From IMG/VR virus record IMGVR_UViG_3300030101_002207, positions 18,407 through 41,157 of that record: a stretch of 22,751 bases of DNA; one strand, given 5' to 3'. The notes under the pieces are model-generated. The model saw nothing but the letters and a program-made list of their open reading frames with translations, searched no databases and was not told the origin of the DNA. Below, in pieces: positions 1 to 22,620 of this stretch. The stretch comes from a virus. The translations under genes were made by a program, and so were the position numbers. The first letter of the stretch is position 1, and the number at the start of each line of letters is the position of its first letter.

Positions 1-287
1 CCAGCAGTGGCAGAACAGCCGTCATAGGCAATGTGTAATCTGTTTTGCTCAGACCAAATTACTTGATCAGATGTCATTGGCATTTCAGCGCCAACCATTC
101 GTAAGAATCCAGATAACGTTCTGTTTCCATAACGCTCTACTTCTTGTTCATAAATTTCAGGTAAATACTGCTGAGCAAATGTGTCAGTGTTTCCAGCACC
201 ACCGTCGTTAAATTTTAAGTAGTTACTATTTAAAATCTCTTGTGTTTGAGATGGAATAATACTACCAAATTGAGGAGTTAAACTCAT
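1..287 (-). CDS. Probable major capsid protein, N-terminal part (cut by window edge)
   Basis: This open frame starts at ATG 287-285 and runs off the left edge, giving about 95 residues beginning MSLTPQFGSIIPSQTQEIL and continuing with a segment containing YLPEIYEQEVERYGNR and VIWSEQNRLH. An N-terminal extended arm followed by 'T-x-x-A-x-x-Y-x-P-E-I-Y-x-x-E-V' and a 'Q-V-I-W-S-E' stretch is what I associate with HK97-fold capsid proteins of marine phages. Position supports this: it is the next gene after terminase, portal and a charged scaffold-like protein, the usual order of head genes. The start follows an A-rich leader (AAAAATTAAAATT) with no Shine-Dalgarno sequence. Only the N-terminus is visible, so the fold cannot be verified; another abundant head protein is possible. 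Confidence 0.6.
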   Translation of the reverse strand, partial: MSLTPQFGSIIPSQTQEILNSNYLKFNDGGAGNTDTFAQQYLPEIYEQEVERYGNRTLSGFLRMVGAEMPMTSDQVIWSEQNRLHIAYDGCSATA

Positions 288-301
288 AATTTTAATTTTT
301 A

Positions 302-1285
302 TTAGTTAAATTTTCTAGTTTTTATTTTTAATTTTGTAGAGTCAGCACCAGAAATAGCTTTAACTTTAAATCCGTTTAAGAAAACCTCACCTTGTTGTGA
401 TCTAGCTTTAGTATCACTTAAGTTTTTTGATTTGTTTACAACGTCTTTAACAGCATCGGCTTTTCCTTGCTCATAAAAATGAGCTGCTATTTTATCTACG
501 TTTTCAGCAGCATACATAGCTTTATGATAACCATTAACATCTGAAACGTTGCCTTTATCGTCTAAGAACTTCTTGACGAGGTTTGTTATGTTAGATTGGT
601 TTTCTGCAACTTTATCTTTGTTTTGAATATTATACTTATATTTCTTTTCACCTACAGTGATATCAAAACCTTTGAAATCATCGCTAAAAAGTTTTTTAGT
701 ATTATTCTTAAACAACTCATGTTGTTGCTTAGCTTGTTCTTGCTCCTTGTTATATCTATTGAAAAAGTCCATAGCTTTTTGTTGCTCTTGAGTTACGCCG
801 GGTCTCAACTTGATTTCGTCGTAATATTTTTTCTTTGTTTGCTCTAAAAAGTTTTTGGCTTTTGCAACTTCTTCTTTAAACGCAAGTTTCTTTTTGCGTA
901 TATCTCTTTCCTCATCTACTTCTTCATCAAATACAAAATCTTCTAATAAAAGATCTACGTCTGAATTATCTAAATAAGGTTTATTTTTTTTGTAATATTC
1001 TTTTAATAGTGTAACATCGTCAATGCTAGAATAGTCAGCATTTAAACGAGTATAATCTTCTATTGTACCACCAGTTTCTTCCATAAAGTTAACTAGCTTT
1101 TCAATATTTTCAGGCAATTTTTTACCTAATATTTTTTCATCTCTTACAGCTTCTTTAACTTCTGCTTCAGCTTGTTTAACTTCAGCTTCTGTTACTTCTT
1201 GGATCGGAGAAAACCCTTCAGTAGTCTCGTTGGACTCTTGTACAGGTTCTCCCACCTTTGCGCTATCTCCGGATGGTTCTTCCAC
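302..1285 (-). CDS. Scaffold-like charged head protein (body; probably expressed by -1 frameshift from ATG at 1392)
   Basis: The frame encodes 327 residues from a GTG at 1285, but stays open upstream to about 1339 without any ATG. The protein is highly charged, rich in E, K, D and Q, with probable coiled coil across residues 105-190 (EEVDEERDIRKKKLAFKEEV; KEQEQAKQQH) and a conserved-looking basic C-terminus (KLKIKTRKFN). Lying between portal and probable capsid gene, it fits a capsid scaffold or a head-assembly core protein. I infer that the true N-terminus is that of the 66-aa frame at 1392: a -1 slip at the A_AAA_AAG heptamer (1330-1324) gives a continuous 363-aa protein whose junction reads KTKK-EDAIQIG. 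The alternative is initiation at GTG 1285, which has AAGGAGG five bases upstream, although other genes here do not use such sites. A real frameshift mutation or sequencing error in the A tract is a third option. Confidence 0.75.
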   Translation of the reverse strand: MEEPSGDSAKVGEPVQESNETTEGFSPIQEVTEAEVKQAEAEVKEAVRDEKILGKKLPENIEKLVNFMEETGGTIEDYTRLNADYSSIDDVTLLKEYYKKNKPYLDNSDVDLLLEDFVFDEEVDEERDIRKKKLAFKEEVAKAKNFLEQTKKKYYDEIKLRPGVTQEQQKAMDFFNRYNKEQEQAKQQHELFKNNTKKLFSDDFKGFDITVGEKKYKYNIQNKDKVAENQSNITNLVKKFLDDKGNVSDVNGYHKAMYAAENVDKIAAHFYEQGKADAVKDVVNKSKNLSDTKARSQQGEVFLNGFKVKAISGADSTKLKIKTRKFN

Positions 1286-1392
1286 AGATACCTCCTTTGT
1301 TTCTCCGATTTGAATGGCATCTTCTTTTTTGTTTTTAATTTAAAGTCACCTTCCTGCTTAACAGGTTCATTTGTTTTTATTTCTTCTGACAT
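1192..1392 (-). CDS. 66-aa protein with MPFKSEKQRRYLW motif; zero-frame product of the frameshift locus
   Basis: ATG at 1392-1390, stop at 1192. Residues 1-24 are acidic-to-basic (MSEEIKTNEPVKQEGDFKLK, then lysines); from Met25 it reads MPFKSEKQRRYLWKNHPEI followed by AQRW. I recognise this second part as resembling a short phage protein motif in which MPFxSExQRRYLWAxxPExA recurs, so the zero frame is probably meaningful and not a shadow. The last 44 residues overlap, in a different frame, the N-terminal acidic region of the scaffold-like protein. Lys22-Lys23 are encoded by the slippery AAA AAG. The leader is A/T-rich (TTTAATTATTTAATTATATTATATT) without a Shine-Dalgarno sequence. Function is unknown. 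It may be a small head or DNA-binding protein, or only the default product of the shift. Confidence 0.6.
   Translation of the reverse strand: MSEEIKTNEPVKQEGDFKLKTKKKMPFKSEKQRRYLWKNHPEIAQRWENLYKSPTRLLKGFLRSKK
1324..1330 (-). other. Candidate -1 ribosomal frameshift site (A_AAA_AAG)
   Basis: On the minus strand the zero-frame codons are ACA AAA AAG AAG ATG, so the heptamer A AAA AAG has the X XXY YYZ phasing of the E. coli dnaX-type -1 slippery site. After slipping, the next codon is GAA and the frame remains open to 302. The overlap between frames runs from about 1339 to 1192. No strong stem-loop is visible 5-9 bases downstream; the nearest is a weak TATCT/AGATA hairpin about 33 bases downstream. 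Function is inferred. Confidence 0.5.
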
Positions 1393-1423
1393 AATATAAT
1401 ATAATTAAATAATTAAATAAAGC

Positions 1424-3811
1424 TTATAAAAATTGCTCTATTCCTGTTGATTGTTGATTTTCAAAATCTATTGGTAAACCGTCGTTTTTTCTTTGGCTTA
1501 TCATTTCACTTTGCTGCGTTGCTTGCAATTTTGTTCTTTTATCTTTACGATCTTCTATTGCATTTTCTTTTTGCTGCATAGCTTGAACTTCAAGCTGCTT
1601 TAACTGCATATCAAACTGATGTTTTATCTGCAATTTTTGTTGATCAAGCTTTGCTTGTATTTCCATTTTTTGTATTTCCATTTGAGTTCTAGCTTGTTCA
1701 TATTGAACTTTAGAACCTGAAATAGCTTCTTGTTTTTGAACTTCAGCCATAGCTGTTTTTTCAGCAGTAGAAGCTTGAGCGTCAGCTTGAGCCTGTATAT
1801 TAGATTGTTGTATTTTAATATCTTGCTGTTGTTTACGCTTACGTTTTATTTTAAGCATTTGATTAGCAAGTTTAATATTTTTTATTTGACGTAAATCTAT
1901 AGCGTCATCTAAATCAATATTACCTGCCTGTAAAGCAACTTGAATATTAGCCTCTAATTTAGCTTGTTCTTCTTCATCTGGTTCTAGTTCTAAGAATATA
2001 CCAAAATCATGTAAGTTTAAATCAATTAAATTCTCTAAAGTTTTAACATTAAATGTAGATATAGAGTTTTGTAAAGAATTAGCTGTTAAAGGAAAGCTTA
2101 AAGCGTCTGCTATTTTTAATGAAATATTCTCTGCTATTCTTAATGTTATATATAATCCAGATTGATTTATATGTCTTGTAGCTGTATTTGAAGCATTAGC
2201 TGCTAGTTTTTGTAATCCAACCAATGTATTTCTATCAGGCAAGCTACCATCTCTAGCTTCATTAAGTCCGGTTACGTCGCGTATCATTTGTAAATAATAT
2301 TGATACGTAGTAATTAAACTTTGTATTTTAGCGCCTCCACTACTACTTTGTAGTTCTTGAATTGGCACTTTACCTCTATTTAAATCACCATCTTGTGTCA
2401 ATGATCTACCAACAATAGAACCTGTTTGAAAATACATGTTTAATGCTTCAGCTGGATTATAATTAGTGCCATTACCAAGATCAACTTCAGCAAGTCCGTC
2501 CATATCTAAATACACACCATCTGGTACCATGCGAGATAACACTTGTTGTAGTTTTAAATGTGTTAATTGTATCATGTCTGCAAAGCCTACACACTTGCTT
2601 ACTAAAGACTCTATTCTACCTTTATACATACGCGGCGCGCATATAGAATAATTCATTTCAACTTTTGTAGTATCAGCATATGGCCTTGACATGTTTTCAG
2701 CAAGCTCCCACTTTAACATAGTGTCAGTTCCTAAAACTTTAGCACCGCTATATAATACTTCAATAGATCTAGATACTCTTTCAAACATATCGCTTTCTGG
2801 CGGATTAAAAGTGTCTGGCTTTTCAATAGCCTTCATTAATCCTTGATCTGTTTGTTTTATTTTAAACACCTGATCGTTATATGTTTTATAATCAAAATAT
2901 AAAACTTGTACAGTATTTTCATCATAACCTCCCCAACCAGTAATATACTGCCTGTTGCCAGGCATTTTTTGTATACGCTCTAACTCTTTATTAGAAATAT
3001 TAGGAAATTCTTTTTTAAGTTCAGGTATTGTTATTGATTTTATTTCGCCAACATAATATATGTCTTCAAAATTAGGATCTTCAGTATATGAGTAAACCAT
3101 GTAAGCGGGATCTACGTAATCAACTGTTATACCATTTGCGGTGTTAAAATTAGTTTTACAAGCTGCAATACCAATTGTAACTAAATCCATATTTATTCTA
3201 CGTCTAGTTAAATTGTATTTGTTTTTAGCCATAATTGTAGATATAGCTTCTTCTTCAGCTATTTCAATTGACTGCTTGTATTTTAATTGCATGTGAAGCT
3301 CTAGCTCTTCTTCTGATTCTGGTATTAAATATGTATTAGAAGTTTGATATAAATCAATACCTAAAACCTGCTTTATATTTTCTATATATTCTTTAGAAAT
3401 CATATCTTCATATATTTTAGAAGCATATGAAGTTCTTTTCTTTATTGAATTAGGATCTTGTGCGTAAGCTTTAATTTCATAAGCCTTTTGTGATATACCA
3501 TTTACAACTATGTCTACAAACTTAGATAAAATAGGCACTGGTTTCCAGTCTAAATTTAAATAAGATAAATCACCGTTAATTGACAATTCATCTTTATATT
3601 TTTGTATAGACTGCTCTCCTCTGGCATATAAACGCAACTCGTGGAAATTGTTCCAGTTTGTTAAATACCTATTACCGTTAGTTCTACCAGATCTAAACCA
3701 CTCGTACTCAATAGCCATTGCTACTTGACTACCGTATTCTAAACTACTTTTCTCAGCATTACTTACTACTTGACTTGGAAAAGCGCTATTTGAGTTAGTG
3801 TATATATTCAT
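1424..3811 (-). CDS. Portal protein
   Basis: This 795-residue protein lies immediately after the large terminase, overlapping it by one base, the classic terminase-portal pair. It would form the dodecameric ring at the unique capsid vertex through which DNA is packaged. The middle contains portal-like segments, for example the clip/stem-like region near CVGFADMIQLTHLKLQQVLS and a following 'RDVTGLNEARDGSLPDRNTL' segment, a V-T-G-x-N pattern seen in large portal proteins. Residues 640-770 form a long Q/K-rich coiled coil (QKMEIQAKLDQQKLQIKHQF), which could be the portal barrel or an assembly tail. Its size, near 800 residues, resembles portals of podovirus and crAss-like phages more than the 450-residue siphovirus type, but I cannot assign the phage family. 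The start follows an AT-rich sequence. Confidence 0.88.
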   Translation of the reverse strand: MNIYTNSNSAFPSQVVSNAEKSSLEYGSQVAMAIEYEWFRSGRTNGNRYLTNWNNFHELRLYARGEQSIQKYKDELSINGDLSYLNLDWKPVPILSKFVDIVVNGISQKAYEIKAYAQDPNSIKKRTSYASKIYEDMISKEYIENIKQVLGIDLYQTSNTYLIPESEEELELHMQLKYKQSIEIAEEEAISTIMAKNKYNLTRRRINMDLVTIGIAACKTNFNTANGITVDYVDPAYMVYSYTEDPNFEDIYYVGEIKSITIPELKKEFPNISNKELERIQKMPGNRQYITGWGGYDENTVQVLYFDYKTYNDQVFKIKQTDQGLMKAIEKPDTFNPPESDMFERVSRSIEVLYSGAKVLGTDTMLKWELAENMSRPYADTTKVEMNYSICAPRMYKGRIESLVSKCVGFADMIQLTHLKLQQVLSRMVPDGVYLDMDGLAEVDLGNGTNYNPAEALNMYFQTGSIVGRSLTQDGDLNRGKVPIQELQSSSGGAKIQSLITTYQYYLQMIRDVTGLNEARDGSLPDRNTLVGLQKLAANASNTATRHINQSGLYITLRIAENISLKIADALSFPLTANSLQNSISTFNVKTLENLIDLNLHDFGIFLELEPDEEEQAKLEANIQVALQAGNIDLDDAIDLRQIKNIKLANQMLKIKRKRKQQQDIKIQQSNIQAQADAQASTAEKTAMAEVQKQEAISGSKVQYEQARTQMEIQKMEIQAKLDQQKLQIKHQFDMQLKQLEVQAMQQKENAIEDRKDKRTKLQATQQSEMISQRKNDGLPIDFENQQSTGIEQFL

Positions 3812-6021
3812 TAACTTATTATTTTTGATGTAGTTCCTCTATTGTCGTATCTTTTTATACCAAGATCAACAGGCTCTAGTTTAATTTTGTTTACAGGCGA
3901 ATATCTATGTTTATTACAAGCCATTAAAGCTAGTCCAGAACTAATAGAAGCATCGTGCTTTGTTCTATTATTAATATTAAATTTAGCCCAATCTTCTAGT
4001 GTTTTTTGAAAATACATATCTCCGTATCCAGTTTCTTTTAAACCTACAAATGTTTCTATATATGTTTCTATAGCTGAAGCATGCGCTTGTTTAATATCTT
4101 CACTAGAGTTTGGTATTCCACCTAATTCTCTTTCAGTTATAGATAATTTATTATATTTTCTATCTGGCCTATTCATAGAAAAACCTCTATAACCACGTTT
4201 TTTTAAATAATATAAAAGCCTAGGTTTGTTGTTTTCAATTAATATTGGCATACCATAAAAAACGCAAGCCATTAAAACATCTTCAAAAAATATTTCAGCT
4301 GTTTGTGGTCTAGCTATATATTCTAGAAAAAAATGATTAGGAGGCACATCTTCCATACAAAACTTTGTTAAGCCGTGTAAAGATCCTTTTGAACCTCTTT
4401 TATCTACAGTTCCTGATATATCATATGGATCACATCCAAAAGCACCCATAAAATCATTACCTGGATAATATGTGTTATTTTTTTTATATCTTTTATTTTG
4501 TATATGAGACGGCGGCACCCAACTTATTTTAAATCTACCGTTTTTATTTGGAACAAATATAACGTTTGTGTCTTTTTCTGCGTTTTGCCACTGAAAACTA
4601 CCTTGAGTAATATTTATAGAATTACGCATGTCTTCGTTAAAATCTATTTGTTCGTAAATTTTAGTTAAATTAAACAAAGATTCTTTTGATTCGTCTCTAA
4701 ACGCGTGCTTCTCTGTTCTAGGAAATTGTCTATAAAACTCATTTAAAGCGTCTTGATCTTGCTTCAATCCAGCAACTTCGTTATCCCAATATTCTATTAC
4801 ACCTAAATCTATAATTTCACCTTGTGGTCCTTTAACAGGTTCGTCTGGTGTTTGGAAGACAGGTATGCCATAAGAATCAATATATCCTTCGTAATTCCAT
4901 TCCATAGGTATGAACAAGCTATATAATCCAGAGCGAGTTTGTCCATTCGCGTTTCGTTGTGTAACATCTGAGTCATTATATAGTTTTTTAAAGTTGTCGC
5001 CGCCTTTGTCTAATGAGTTACTAGTTGAACCCATCATGCATTTACCTATAATTCTACTACCTAATCGTAAGCAGGTTTTCGTAACCCTCCAGTTGTTGAG
5101 GATGTTCGTCGGACGCTCCCACTTGCCGCTTTCATCGTGGACGAGGAGTTTGAGCTTTTCACCGTCATACGAGTTGTCGCCCGTGTTTTTCCAGTCGATC
5201 GTGGTGTCGAGCCCATCGATCTCTTGTAATTGTGCGTTTGTTTCAAGTTTCTTACGCGTGTATTTTGTTGCGGGTACTCTATACGCAAGCTCTGTCTTTG
5301 GCCTGTCCATTCCGTCTTGAATTGGTTTGAAAAAGAAGGGGTAGTTAACTGATATCGGTACCACCTTGTCTGTAAACATCTTCTTTGCATCAGGACCAGA
5401 TTTTGATAATATTCCAAACCTAGAATCGCTTGATATGGTTGCCATATTAACACACTCCCCGGACGCCATAAAGGAAAACCCAGAACGTCTGTTCTTAAGA
5501 TAGCACATCCCATATGATCTATGGTCGGCCTTGCAAGCTTCCCAGAATATGTAGAATAATCTGTTTGATTCCCTAAAATCTGGTTGCCCAACATCAATCT
5601 TGGACCACTGCAAGTACATATAGTGAGTACCAGTAATGTAAGTAGCCACATCCTTATTATAGAACCAAAAGCCTTCTTCCCTGCGGACGAACTCATTATC
5701 GATGTAATCATACCATTTTTCTTTGAAGTCTAACGGGTATTGTTCCCAGTCAAAAACAGACTTTATTTTTTTTAATACTTTTGGATATTCAGTGTGTTCC
5801 CAAGTATTTGTTTCAAACTTGTGTATTTTGTTTTCTACAGGTAAGGCTATTTTTAGGTTTTGTATTTCATATATTTCGCCTATTTTGCCTGTCTTACTTA
5901 TAACAATAATATCGTGTTCTTTATTATACCCATATTCCCATTTACTATACCTATTCATTCGTTTAAGAATTTTAGGTTTAATATGGTCTTTTAAAACTTT
6001 ATATAAACTTTGCTCGTACAT
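3811..6021 (-). CDS. terL: Terminase large subunit (ATPase and nuclease)
   Basis: This 736-residue packaging motor cuts concatemeric DNA and pumps it into the prohead. Visible motifs, in order: an adenine-binding-like segment TGTHYMYLQW near 130-139; a divergent Walker A, LKNRRSGFS, near 175-183; Walker B LLVHDE at 292-297 with the catalytic Glu297; a coupling motif near GKCMMGSTSN at 326-335; and nuclease acidic residues in GCDPYD (529-534), IEN (595-597) and KHDAS (689-692). The length fits the large terminases that lie next to portals near 800 residues. It overlaps the upstream small gene by one base (start 6021) and the portal start by one base. The ATPase half (about 5040-5740) is far richer in G+C than the rest of the gene, with different codon use, suggesting an intragenic recombination patch. 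Confidence 0.93.
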   Translation of the reverse strand: MYEQSLYKVLKDHIKPKILKRMNRYSKWEYGYNKEHDIIVISKTGKIGEIYEIQNLKIALPVENKIHKFETNTWEHTEYPKVLKKIKSVFDWEQYPLDFKEKWYDYIDNEFVRREEGFWFYNKDVATYITGTHYMYLQWSKIDVGQPDFRESNRLFYIFWEACKADHRSYGMCYLKNRRSGFSFMASGECVNMATISSDSRFGILSKSGPDAKKMFTDKVVPISVNYPFFFKPIQDGMDRPKTELAYRVPATKYTRKKLETNAQLQEIDGLDTTIDWKNTGDNSYDGEKLKLLVHDESGKWERPTNILNNWRVTKTCLRLGSRIIGKCMMGSTSNSLDKGGDNFKKLYNDSDVTQRNANGQTRSGLYSLFIPMEWNYEGYIDSYGIPVFQTPDEPVKGPQGEIIDLGVIEYWDNEVAGLKQDQDALNEFYRQFPRTEKHAFRDESKESLFNLTKIYEQIDFNEDMRNSINITQGSFQWQNAEKDTNVIFVPNKNGRFKISWVPPSHIQNKRYKKNNTYYPGNDFMGAFGCDPYDISGTVDKRGSKGSLHGLTKFCMEDVPPNHFFLEYIARPQTAEIFFEDVLMACVFYGMPILIENNKPRLLYYLKKRGYRGFSMNRPDRKYNKLSITERELGGIPNSSEDIKQAHASAIETYIETFVGLKETGYGDMYFQKTLEDWAKFNINNRTKHDASISSGLALMACNKHRYSPVNKIKLEPVDLGIKRYDNRGTTSKIIS

Positions 6022-6296
6022 TACTTAGATCTACCTTCTGCAAAACCTTTAAAAGCTCTTTCTTCTTTAACTTCTTTTGGTTTTTCGTTTAATAAGTTTT
6101 CTTCTTCTTCGATGCGGCTAAGTATTTCAAAAGCATCAAATATAGCAAGCTTTTTTGTAGCCGCAGCATTTTTAAGTCTATCAGCTGATATATCATCGTC
6201 TGAATCAACAATAGCTTCTTTAGCTACTTTGATTAATTCCTCTACTGCTTTCTGCCCAGCTTGGATTATATTCTTCTTCGTCTCCTTGGTATTCAT
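6021..6296 (-). CDS. Small protein directly upstream of terL; candidate small terminase subunit
   Basis: A 91-residue, mostly alpha-helical, charged protein starting MNTKETKKNIIQAGQKAVEE with a helical stretch ADRLKNAAATKKLAIFDAFE and a basic end. It lies immediately before terL and overlaps it by one base. Position and the helix-rich composition make it a candidate TerS or terminase partner, but it is shorter than usual TerS proteins and no DNA-binding HTH is obvious, so this is inference from context. Its first 77 bases are read in another frame as the end of the upstream GroES-like gene. That overlap is long, and both frames look conserved (see findings). Confidence 0.7.
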   Translation of the reverse strand: MNTKETKKNIIQAGQKAVEELIKVAKEAIVDSDDDISADRLKNAAATKKLAIFDAFEILSRIEEEENLLNEKPKEVKEERAFKGFAEGRSK

Positions 6297-6846
6297 ACTT
6301 AATTACAATATCATTTGATTTCATACAATAAAGTCGTTTATTATCGACTAAAAACTCCCATTCGCTGTTAGGAGTAAATCCTACAAGATCACCTGGGTTG
6401 ATATTAAGCTGTTCTAATGAACTATTACCATATTTTAATATACCAATAAGGCTTGCTTCTTTATCAAGCGTTAGATCTTGTTTGCTTTTTATAGGTGTTA
6501 CAAAGCATCTATTATTTATAGTCTTCCAATTGTTTTTGTTTTTATATAAATAAATTTGGTCAATTGCGCAGAAATAATAATCTTCTTTAAAATAAGATCT
6601 GCTTTTTTTCTTTTCACCCCTCATATCATAAAACGTTCTAAATACGTTTTGATGTATGATTATTAAAGCACCTTTCTTAATAGGCGTAGAAAAAGCTGCT
6701 GGTGTTTCAATAACTTTAGCAACTCTATTAACAAACTTCCAGTTTTCTATTTTAGTATTTACAACTAATTTTTTATCACCTACATTAACAGTATTACTGT
6801 ATTTATCGCCAACTGGTTCAACGATAAAATCATAAAGACTTTTCAT
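6220..6846 (-). CDS. Probable tandem GroES-like (Cpn10-fold) protein
   Basis: A 208-residue protein that I read as two Cpn10-like halves. The first, residues 6-101, has FIVEPVGDKY, then VAKVIETP, then IKKGALIIIHQNVF and ends DQIYLY. The second, residues 112-185, has RCFVTPIK, then SLIGILKYG, then INPGDLVGFTPNSEWEF and ends SNDIVIKYE. Each follows the Cpn10 order: an N-terminal 'V-x-P' strand, a 'G-x-V/I' strand, a 'G-D-x-V-x-F' turn and a final 'D-I-x-x-x-x'. This resembles GroES but without an obvious mobile-loop 'GGI-L' signature. The same phage encodes a normal GroES and GroEL 5.8 kb upstream in the transcription order. It could be a specialised co-chaperonin or a structural protein that borrowed the fold. 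The C-terminal YQGDEEEYNPSWAE tail is read in a second frame by the next gene. A structure prediction would decide the call. Confidence 0.6.
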   Translation of the reverse strand: MKSLYDFIVEPVGDKYSNTVNVGDKKLVVNTKIENWKFVNRVAKVIETPAAFSTPIKKGALIIIHQNVFRTFYDMRGEKKKSRSYFKEDYYFCAIDQIYLYKNKNNWKTINNRCFVTPIKSKQDLTLDKEASLIGILKYGNSSLEQLNINPGDLVGFTPNSEWEFLVDNKRLYCMKSNDIVIKYEYQGDEEEYNPSWAESSRGINQSS

Positions 6847-20395: not shown

Positions 20396-20647
20396 CTATT
20401 TGTTTTGTGTAGCTGTATTAGTTAGTAAGTCGTAGTTATGAGTTAGTATCGATGCATCGCCACGGGTTAAAGCTCTGTCAGCTGCGCTCATGTTGTTTCT
20501 TTTATGGAATTTATCGGTAAAGGTGCCATTATGATTTAAAAACCCGTTTTTTTTCATTAGTTTTATAGCAAACTTCTTGTTTCCTCCAACTTGCGCTATT
20601 AATCTAGGAATAAGTTCTCCTGGAGCTGTAAATCGAGTTGTTTCCAT
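20396..20647 (-). CDS. Small basic protein, first gene of the leftward region
   Basis: An 83-residue basic protein: METTRFTAPGELIPRLIAQV with GGNKKFAIKLMKKNGFLN and RNNMSAADRALTRGDASILT. It is probably helical. As the first gene of the leftward arm, it is adjacent to the control region and should be the first late product. It may bind nucleic acid or be a structural protein; no family recognised. Confidence 0.65.
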   Translation of the reverse strand: METTRFTAPGELIPRLIAQVGGNKKFAIKLMKKNGFLNHNGTFTDKFHKRNNMSAADRALTRGDASILTHNYDLLTNTATQNK

Positions 20648-20688
20648 ATTACTATATACTTACATATAAAGCGAGAAACTTACAAAGT

Positions 20689-20733
20689 GTGACATTAGGG
20701 TACTACTTATATAACTTATAAGGCTTATGTCAC
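20689..20733. promoter_or_regulatory. Inverted repeat GTGACAT...ATGTCAC with three 9-bp-spaced CTTAT repeats
   Basis: GTGACAT at 20689-20695 and ATGTCAC at 20727-20733 form a perfect 7-bp dyad with a 31-base spacer. Inside it, CTTAT occurs at 20706, 20715 and 20724, strictly nine bases apart. This placement, about 45 bases upstream of the late-arm start codon (20647), suits an operator controlling leftward transcription. Function is inferred. Confidence 0.5.
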
Positions 20734-20926: not shown

Positions 20927-20958
20927 TTACAAACAAAATACATTACATATTGGATAAT
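20927..20958 (+). promoter_or_regulatory. Repeated early element, copy 1
   Basis: TTACAAACA, 14 bases, then TTGGATAAT. It lies 39 bases before the ATG of the first early gene. Copies 2 and 3 have the same spacing. I infer a phage early promoter; it does not match the Bacteroidetes TAnnTTTG -7 box exactly, but each copy has TA-N3-WTTG in that place. Confidence 0.6.
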
Positions 20959-20997
20959 AATAATGTAAATACTTAATAACTAATAATAATAATAACT

Positions 20998-21225
20998 ATG
21001 CAAATTATCAATTCAAAAAGATTTGTTGTACGCAAATCACTAATCGGAAATCCTACAATCATACAAGTAACTTTCAAAAATGGTAAAACATACAAGTACA
21101 ATCACGATAAAGTGTACGAGATAATGAAAGACAAACTAAATTCTATGAATTGTTTCGAGAAATATAAGTCTTACACTTCAACTACTAGTGTACCAGTAAT
21201 CTTACGTGACAAAGTAGTACTATAA
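20998..21225 (+). CDS. Early 75-aa hypothetical protein
   Basis: The first rightward gene. Its product begins MQIINSKRFVVRKSLIGNPT and contains VTFKNGKTYKYNHDKVYEIM, then CFEKYKSYTSTTSVP. The 'F-K-N-G-K-x-Y-x-Y' beta hairpin suggests a small beta/alpha fold. Small phage early proteins often modify host functions, but no family is recognised. The start context is AACTATGCAA, shared with three other early genes, and it is preceded by copy 1 of the repeated element. Confidence 0.75.
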   Translation: MQIINSKRFVVRKSLIGNPTIIQVTFKNGKTYKYNHDKVYEIMKDKLNSMNCFEKYKSYTSTTSVPVILRDKVVL

Positions 21226-21235
21226 TAGTATTACT

Positions 21236-21262
21236 TGTCATGACAGATTGTCACTGCGCAGT
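21236..21262. promoter_or_regulatory. Two adjacent 10-bp palindromes (TGTCATGACA and ACTGCGCAGT)
   Basis: TGTCATGACA (21236-21245) and ACTGCGCAGT (21253-21262) are both perfect palindromes, seven bases apart, in a 92-base spacer without genes. They are not followed by a T run, so a terminator is unlikely. A TGTCAC box (21249-21254) lies between and overlaps the second. This could be an operator or a replication-related site. Confidence 0.45.
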
Positions 21263-21317
21263 ACATCTACAATAAATTAAACTAATAAACAATTAAACAC
21301 CTATAAATAAAACTAAT

Positions 21318-21404
21318 ATGAGAAAATTCATTCACACTATTCTATTCAAAATCAAATCATTAAAAATAGAAATCGGTAAAGCTCCAAGTGAAACAACTTG
21401 GTAA
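21318..21404 (+). CDS. Early 28-aa peptide gene
   Basis: ATG at 21318, stop 21402-21404. The product starts MRKFIHTILFKIKSLKIEIG and ends PSETTW. It is basic and amphipathic. It lies between two regulatory-looking sites, with copy 2 of the repeated element starting one base after its stop. A coding role is uncertain at this size, but it follows an A-rich leader (AATAAAACTAAT). Confidence 0.4.
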   Translation: MRKFIHTILFKIKSLKIEIGKAPSETTW

Positions 21405-21436
21405 TTACAAACAAATTACAATATCCTTTGGATAAT
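21405..21436 (+). promoter_or_regulatory. Repeated early element, copy 2
   Basis: TTACAAACA, 14 bases, TTGGATAAT, followed by ATAATAAAAT, identical in this last part to copy 3. The next ATG (21471) is 34 bases downstream. Probable early promoter. Confidence 0.6.
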
Positions 21437-21470
21437 ATAATAAAATACTAACTAATTAAAACTAAATACT

Positions 21471-21581
21471 ATGTCTTCAAAATACTTAAATATATCTTTC
21501 AGAGTCTATGGCAAACACTTCAACTTGCTAACTAAAGAACAAAAAGATAAAGTCATTGAGATATACTATGACTTCTATTAA
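21471..21581 (+). CDS. Early 36-aa protein
   Basis: ATG at 21471, stop at 21579-21581. The product begins MSSKYLNISFRVYGKHFNLL and ends VIEIYYDFY. Alternating aromatic and polar residues suggest a small folded unit or a helix. It is the first gene after copy 2 of the repeated element, which supports a real transcript. Function is unknown. Confidence 0.5.
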   Translation: MSSKYLNISFRVYGKHFNLLTKEQKDKVIEIYYDFY

Positions 21582-21587
21582 AAAACC

Positions 21588-21701
21588 GGAGTGAATGGCT
21601 CGCAGTAAATCGTGGCGTACTTAATATAGATGAAAAACTCTATAGCGTTAGTAGGTAAATCGCGCGCGTGTGTGAGAGAAGTTCGATTCTTCTACACTCC
21701 A
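21588..21701 (+). tRNA. tRNA-like RNA gene, atypical or degenerate
   Basis: The 3' end carries a good T-arm: AGAAG-TTCGATT-CTTCT (21677-21693), followed by ACACTCC and a discriminator A at 21701, without an encoded CCA. The 5' end GGAGTG (21588-21593) pairs with CACTCC (21695-21700), giving a six-pair acceptor stem. The interior is not standard: the length is 114 bases; a hairpin TATAGA-TGAAAAAC-TCTATA (21625-21644) could be an anticodon arm with an 8-base loop; and a D-arm-like TAGCG-TTAGTAGGTAAAT-CGC (21643-21663) lies 3' of it instead of 5'. It might be a rearranged or degenerate tRNA (a TGA anticodon, Ser-like, is conceivable), a tRNA mimic, or a tRNA fragment used as an attachment site. 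Confidence 0.4.
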
Positions 21702-21722
21702 CTAATATTAAATAATATAACT

Positions 21723-21848
21723 ATGCAAAAACTAGATAAAATAGCACAAGAAGTATTTGGTGAGTTCGGGTTCACTACGTGTACTTCAGATCAACAAGAA
21801 ACAATATTAACTTATTACTCTAACTTTAAAAATCTATGCAATGAATAA
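21723..21848 (+). CDS. Early 41-aa protein
   Basis: I place the start at ATG 21723 (AACTATGCAA context) and not at an upstream ATG at 21630, since that longer frame would run through the tRNA-like RNA. The product begins MQKLDKIAQEVFGEFGFTTC and ends NFKNLCNE. It has two Cys and a helical N-terminus. It overlaps the next gene by eight bases (21841-21848). Function is unknown. Confidence 0.6.
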   Translation: MQKLDKIAQEVFGEFGFTTCTSDQQETILTYYSNFKNLCNE

Positions 21849-22080
21849 TAAAAAAGAATTTATGTTAGTGCCTTATGAGTCAAATGAATATGGCTTTACT
21901 TGTAAGTACTTTAACTTTCACCCTTACTATATTATGTCATTTTCAACTAAAACAGAAGATGAAATGAAGAGTAGAATATCTGATTATACTGCTAACAGAG
22001 TAAAATATGAGCGAAAGTTTAAATTACATACTAATGCAGCAGCGGAATTTTATCAAGAACTAAATTATAAAGGTGATTAA
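21841..22080 (+). CDS. Early 79-aa hypothetical protein
   Basis: Begins MNNKKEFMLVPYESNEYGFT and contains CKYFNFHPYYIMSFSTKTED, then KSRISDYTANRVKYERKF. It is aromatic- and charge-rich. It starts within the end of the previous gene, and its stop is two bases before the next ATG, so these genes are translated together. Not recognised. Confidence 0.68.
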   Translation: MNNKKEFMLVPYESNEYGFTCKYFNFHPYYIMSFSTKTEDEMKSRISDYTANRVKYERKFKLHTNAAAEFYQELNYKGD

Positions 22081-22082
22081 CT

Positions 22083-22211
22083 ATGCAATTTATACAAATA
22101 ACTAATAATAAAGAGATAGATATGACTTCTCTTATACTAAAACAAATGAAAGGCGAGATAACTCGTGATGAAGTTTTACAAGTAATTAAAAATAATTATG
22201 AAGAAAAATAA
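22083..22211 (+). CDS. Early 42-aa protein
   Basis: ATG at 22083 in a TTAACTATGCAA context, stop 22209-22211. The product begins MQFIQITNNKEIDMTSLILK and ends VLQVIKNNYEEK, probably one beta strand and two helices. The next gene starts inside its end (14-base overlap). Function is unknown. Confidence 0.55.
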   Translation: MQFIQITNNKEIDMTSLILKQMKGEITRDEVLQVIKNNYEEK

Positions 22212-22281
22212 AATACTAACTATTGCAGCAGTGTTTTTCACTGCAATATACTTAATCTTTATGTTTAATTATTTAAAATAA
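22198..22281 (+). CDS. 27-aa single-span membrane peptide
   Basis: ATG at 22198-22200 within the end of the previous gene; stop 22279-22281. The product is MKKNK followed by an uninterrupted hydrophobic stretch ILTIAAVFFTAIYLIFMF and NYLK. A basic N-terminus before one membrane span gives an inside-out orientation. Tiny membrane peptides of this sort can alter the host membrane, but no role can be assigned. The tight overlap and the next gene start at 22283 support translation. Confidence 0.5.
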   Translation: MKKNKILTIAAVFFTAIYLIFMFNYLK

Positions 22282-22282
22282 T

Positions 22283-22426
22283 ATGAAAAGAAAAAGAAAG
22301 TTTTCACACTATAAACTAAAACAAGTGCAAATTAGAGTAATTGAACAAGAGTATTATGATAAATTAAACTCTGATATAAATCAGTGGCAACAGAATTACA
22401 AACATAATACAATAACTATTGGATAA
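22283..22426 (+). CDS. Early 47-aa basic protein
   Basis: ATG at 22283, one base after the previous stop; stop 22424-22426. It begins MKRKRKFSHYKLKQVQIRVI and ends YKHNTITIG. The strongly basic start could bind nucleic acid. Its last ten codons coincide with copy 3 of the repeated element, so the promoter-like element is embedded in coding sequence. Confidence 0.5.
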   Translation: MKRKRKFSHYKLKQVQIRVIEQEYYDKLNSDINQWQQNYKHNTITIG

Positions 22427-22427
22427 T
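22396..22427 (+). promoter_or_regulatory. Repeated early element, copy 3
   Basis: TTACAAACA, 14 bases, TTGGATAAT, then ATAATAAAAT as in copy 2. It overlaps the end of the 47-aa gene and lies 16 bases from the next ATG (22444). Probable early promoter. Confidence 0.6.
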
Positions 22428-22443
22428 ATAATAAAATTAAACT

Positions 22444-22620
22444 ATGCAAAAAATAAAATTCTTACAAAACAATCAAATCTCACTTAATAATAAAATCTAT
22501 CAAGGCTACAATATAGGTGAGTTACCAAATACTTTCGGCTTTACTTATAACGAAGAAGCAGATCAAGTTGGTATTAGCGAATGGTTTAACTACAAAGGTT
22601 TAACTTATGTCGCCAAGTAA
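22444..22620 (+). CDS. Early 58-aa protein
   Basis: ATG at 22444 in the AAACTATGCAA context; stop 22618-22620. It begins MQKIKFLQNNQISLNNKIYQ, with GFTYNEEADQVGISEWFNYK in the second half. Small alpha/beta protein of unknown function. It directly follows copy 3 of the repeated element. Confidence 0.6.
   Translation: MQKIKFLQNNQISLNNKIYQGYNIGELPNTFGFTYNEEADQVGISEWFNYKGLTYVAK

Follow-up and report, generated by a model that had tools for sequence, protein, structure and literature searches.

A one-directional family of predicted early promoters in a group of uncultured podoviruses, probably of Bacteroidota

Background

Little is known about how phages of Bacteroidota control transcription, and the promoters of their hosts follow a code unlike the textbook one. 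Housekeeping promoters of Flavobacterium and Bacteroides carry TTTG at -33 and TAnnTTTG at -7, and T-12, A-11, T-8, T-7, T-6 and G-5 are needed (PMC6847099). In better described phages, T4 middle promoters carry a MotA box centred at -30 (PMC6024815), and the promoters read by the phage sigma factors of phiEco32 and 7-11 are well conserved and low in copy number (PMC4331800).

The phage group described here has, like phiEco32 and 7-11 (PMC4331800) and T4 in its late phase (PMC6024815), its own sigma70-type factor and non-host promoters. Two promoter classes are predicted, an early type (class E) and a late type (class L). The low copy number of the phiEco32 and 7-11 sigma promoters fits class L better than class E, which has 4-10 copies. 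With T4 middle promoters (PMC6024815) class E shares a sigma70-like -10 element and a phage-specific box, centred near -30, that replaces the host -35 element. However, the class-E box is longer (-38 to -22), varies between lineages and forms an array in the presumed early region, and no MotA or AsiA relative was identified for class E.

Terminase, portal, GroEL and GroES genes place this phage near the Flavobacterium elemo phages, Cellulophaga phi38:1, Maribacter phage Panino and the metagenomic podovirus MW202828. Terminase and portal each matched 87 named phage records, mostly below 60% identity, and by these homologous genes the phage resembles Pervagoviridae podoviruses. Four named relatives, phi38:1 (Callevirus, Pervagoviridae), elemoA (Elemovirus), Panino and MW202828, share all four genes but, unlike this group, have neither the sigma factor, nor class-E promoters, nor any match to sigma70 region 2. 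Searches of these four with the phage sigma and with the class-E weight matrix gave no match.

Results and Discussion

Copies of the element and their surroundings

The window analysed here is a stretch of 22,751 nucleotides, bases 18407-41157, at the right end of a 41,157-bp IMG/VR virus record. As the original prediction had it, the element TTACAAACA-N14-TTGGATAAT occurs three times on the plus strand (exact matches at 20927-20958, 21405-21436 and 22396-22427), copy 1 lies in noncoding DNA and each copy is followed by a small gene, with ATGs at 20998 (39 nt downstream), 21471 (34 nt) and 22444 (16 nt). The whole record holds only these three copies, on one strand, and no further match was found on either strand of the window with up to three mismatches. 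Dinucleotide shuffles gave a chance expectation of 0.11, and none of 100 reached three copies. Copy 2 starts immediately after the stop codon of a short ORF, while the 3' end of ORF 22283-22426 lies within copy 3 and takes its stop codon (ggaTAAt) from it. Conservation extends further than first noted, since AWAAWWR continues downstream, and the N14 spacer is itself partly conserved across relatives (positions 9-16, which lie inside it).

With this extension, the predicted class-E promoters span 20927..20968 (copy 1; TTACAAAC.. box, GATAATA -10; score 46.6 against shuffle maxima near 0), 21405..21446 (copy 2; score 51.1) and 22396..22437 (copy 3; score 50.1), all on the plus strand. From the conserved purine discussed below, their +1 positions are predicted at about 20965, 21443 and 22434. 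The weight matrix recovers these three copies in the record and no others.

Behind copy 1 lies the first early gene (20998..21225, plus strand; 75 aa, MQIINSKRFVVRKS...), which has no significant match in Pfam and whose orthologues follow an early promoter in most relatives. Copy 2 precedes a small early ORF of 36 aa read from the sequence (MSSKYLNISF...; 21471..21581, plus strand), and copy 3 a small early gene of 58 aa (22444..22620, plus strand). Between copies 2 and 3 there is a conserved tRNA-like non-coding RNA (21588..21700, plus strand), in which an acceptor-like stem of 6 bp and a canonical T arm (GUUCGAUUC) enclose a long central arm; both ARAGORN and Rfam miss it. Homologues are present in L054, L017 and L291, and in L054 the RNA lies directly 3' of a class-E promoter. 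In four other records (L077, L011, L023 and L040) short T-arm/acceptor-like hairpins adjoin class-E promoters, some seemingly without D and anticodon arms; these could be tRNA remnants or processing signals.

A promoter family restricted to one phage group

Scanning 2.9 million viral contigs for exact matches gave 65 stretches with the element, many having 2-4 copies. Bacterial and archaeal contigs (257 Gb) gave 21, with multiple copies only in three phage-like MAG contigs. All 48 IMG/VR carrier records, searched with up to three mismatches, gave 243 copies in one orientation and 3 in the other (reversed-pattern control, 5). Of the 279 copies in 80 loci with a sigma homologue, all have the same orientation as the sigma gene and 272 precede it. 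Both box types tested are confined to this group, whose terminase is present in 29 of 30 tested records, and in four bacterial genomes counts of the core pattern equal those of the reversed control.

The consensus of 378 non-redundant copies is TTACAAACWAAATACRA-N(5-7)-TGGATAATA, the downstream part also being given as (T)GGATAATA. GATAATA is invariant among these sites, an invariance partly favoured by the score threshold and site selection. A purine follows GATAAT at a distance of 7 nt in 99% of sites (A.56, G.43), and gene starts, taken from mechanical gene calls, peak exactly at this purine (30/344), only 10/344 being closer. Taking the purine as +1, GATAAT occupies -12..-7, GATAATA -12 to -6 and the upstream box -38 to -22. 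This is the geometry of sigma70-family promoters, in which the -10 element ends 7 nt before the predicted start and the -35 region lies about 17 nt upstream. Since the start purine coincides with the gene start in some copies, some class-E messages would be leaderless.

The original prediction of a phage early promoter is thus supported, as to both the promoter and the early region, by comparative anatomy: in dozens of related phages the element lies on one strand, immediately ahead of small genes, and a conserved purine stands where transcription is expected to begin. We hold with high confidence that the three elements are promoters, whatever reads them. Judging from these comparisons, most of which come from one clade with few named relatives, they very likely belong to a large, one-directional promoter family limited to a single group of uncultured phages whose hosts are probably Bacteroidota. 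Activity, timing and reader of class E are inferred from sequence. No description of the element was found in an open-access library of papers.

Comparison with the host promoter code

The proposal that a host sigma factor reads a TA-N3-WTTG box found no support. Those positions are essentially unconserved in the 378 copies (positions 17-22, 0.02-0.14 bits; the W at 22 is A.47, T.33, G.13), and the true core is GATAATA. The suggested comparison with flavobacterial promoters gave agreement with the Flavobacterium consensus at A-11 and T-7 only. Class E and the housekeeping promoters of Flavobacterium and Bacteroides (PMC6847099) also share the spacing from the -10 region to the start, and the hosts of the named relatives are Flavobacteriaceae. 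In contrast, G-12, A-8 and A-6 replace T-12, T-8 and T-6, G-5 is absent, there is no TTTG at -33, and class E has an extra 17-bp upstream box. The 378 sites read G-12 A-11 T-10 A-9 A-8 T-7 A-6 and lack the Bacteroidota -7 element, the consensus compared being that of Flavobacterium. Likewise, -38 to -31 is TTACAAAC, with no conserved TTG upstream.

Upstream of genes, TAnnTTTG is rare in the sense direction in the sigma-group phages (sense/antisense 1/8, 2/5, 3/10, 3/8, 3/9 and 1/4), which avoid it, whereas three of the four sigma-less relatives favour it (17/9, 17/10, 15/4 and 9/9 for the four). No host-type promoters are enriched in the early region. Since the host -7 element is unmatched and host-type boxes are under-represented, the standard host sigma factor would not be the reader of class E.

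The divergent region and the late-type promoter

Left of copy 1, on the minus strand, there is a predicted class-L promoter (TTTGTAAG..TGTAAGTATATA; 20647..20689; score 37.6 against 6.4 in shuffles). It has the form TTGTAA-N16-TGTRAGTATATA, points leftward and lies just 5' of the first late gene (20396..20647, minus strand; 83 aa, METTRFTAPG...), its presumed target, whose ATG sits 5 nt behind the TATATA of the promoter. Between the early and late promoters there is a 45-bp palindrome, GTGACA-N33-TGTCAC (20689..20733), which is likely an operator. Complete genomes usually have two copies, and in relatives the second lies across the start codon of the HTH gene that immediately precedes sigma. 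The palindrome's regulator may thus control its own operon as well as the switch from early to late genes.

Several lineages with changed class-E boxes retain class L, and the sigma variants with altered region 4 lack it. Class L is also without a clear site in G007, where the region 4 helix is ordinary, and weak or unclear in G070, G058, G051 and G061; the link between class L and sigma rests on few events.

The phage sigma factor

Carriers that reach far enough encode a private sigma70-type factor of about 250 aa, 1.5-10 kb downstream of the promoters. It matches PHROG_351 (E=1.5e-18), and in structure it comes closest to sigma-A, sigma-70 and sigma-S subunits; the TM-scores are low, which probably reflects an uncertain domain arrangement. 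A search of 50,697 named phage records gave a single weak match to it. Judging from copy positions, element-carrying records without sigma end before its expected place. The present truncated record, within which no sigma70-family factor is encoded, is one of these, and by analogy with its relatives the factor of this phage would lie beyond the record end. In L192 a class-E copy lies directly before the sigma start codon. In two loci (G019:C1:58338-59098 and G026:C1:35215-35968) the sigma frame has in-frame stops or frame breaks, which may be sequencing error, recoding or decay. Middle promoters behind sigma were considered and dropped, as the apparent gaps look like short coding ORFs.

Which factor reads class E

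The upstream box varies by lineage (TTACAAAC, CACGGACTTA, TTCGAAAC, ATATAAGTTTG) while the -10 stays constant. Changes to CACGGACTTA, TTCGAAAC or ATATAAGTTTG occur without a matching change in sigma region 4, and class L usually stays. On the sigma tree at least 8 changes of box type are needed, some box labels being rough, and CACGGACTTA, a type confined to this phage group, recurs in separate sigma lineages. Across 54 gene families, box type correlates neither with sigma (r = -0.04) nor with its HTH neighbour (r = -0.21); only linked early genes co-segregate with it (r = 0.54-0.56), which may be simple linkage. For class E, specificity does not follow the phage sigma, as box type is independent of both region 4 and the sigma tree. 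Since boxes switch without region 4 changing, a separate, additional factor probably reads the box.

The opposite reading, that the phage sigma itself reads class E, supposes an autocatalytic array in which a little sigma, from the virion or from leaky transcription, switches on the upstream operons. Sigma and class E co-occur wherever this is testable and are both absent from the four named relatives, although one clade may simply have inherited both from a single event. The avoidance of the host-type box points the same way: it was abandoned exactly where sigma is present, so sigma itself could read class E. The copy before sigma in L192 and the near constancy of both the -10 and sigma region 2 add to this. 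Nevertheless, region 4.2 stays the same through several changes of the box, CACGGACTTA turns up in separate sigma lineages, the clade with variant region 4 keeps an ordinary class-E box yet has no class L, and the sigma gene lies downstream of the array and would not be available first. We regard this reading as unlikely, though a real contender.

Early promoters are normally read by the host, and GATAATA retains A-11 and T-7; host holoenzyme with an alternative or relaxed housekeeping sigma might therefore read class E without phage help. Such plain host promoters seem improbable given the rarity of the exact element in bacterial and archaeal contigs, where repeated copies are phage-like, the core-pattern counts no higher than the reversed control in four bacterial genomes, and the restriction of both tested boxes to this group. 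Alternatively, the repeats of the early region could be operators or serve replication or recombination: class E is repeated and resembles a protein-binding site, and the separate palindrome nearby looks like an operator. That class E is strictly oriented, keeps within a limited distance of gene starts and has a purine at +1 and a -10-like invariant core makes this very improbable indeed. A single-subunit or virion RNA polymerase is a less favoured candidate reader: the giant ORF of this record has no DxDxD catalytic-type motif, and a PF00940 search of 18 records gave no match, the control being silent too. In L092 a giant ORF of more than 2,100 aa (3-6422, minus strand), cut by the record end, has a HAD-like DFDDTL motif; it resembles a polyvalent ejected protein rather than an RNA polymerase. 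A faint likeness of TAATACGA in some relatives to T7 promoters was dropped, -21 to -13 being unconserved.

The reading to which we give somewhat better than even credence is that class E comprises promoters of sigma70-type geometry read by host polymerase, which something else than the phage sigma would direct, with an additional, lineage-specific DNA-binding factor at the box. We prefer the arrangement in which class L is read with the phage sigma and class E by host polymerase with this factor. Bacterial RNA polymerase would open GATAATA (-12 to -6) and begin transcription at the purine 7 nt downstream of GATAAT, which in some copies is the A of the ATG itself, and the upstream box (TTACAAACAAAATACRA in the window) would serve as the phage's own address. 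Class E would thereby start the rightward early transcription units of this uncultured podovirus, transcription would pass several class-E promoters into the operon of the regulator and sigma, and the phage sigma would then most likely serve the class-L promoter on the opposite strand. Tentatively, and with doubt, this may amount to a new scheme in Bacteroidota phages, in which a fixed -10 is combined with an exchangeable 17-bp box, and a lineage-specific factor of the phage or its virion reads this box and redirects host polymerase before sigma takes over the late genes.

Conclusions

From an apparently common group of uncultured phages comes a set of hundreds of sequence-defined promoters with predicted starts, a private sigma factor, a late promoter and a putative operator. 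If our reading is correct, these may provide orthogonal promoters for Bacteroidota, and the group would represent a natural experiment on how promoter boxes and their readers evolve apart.
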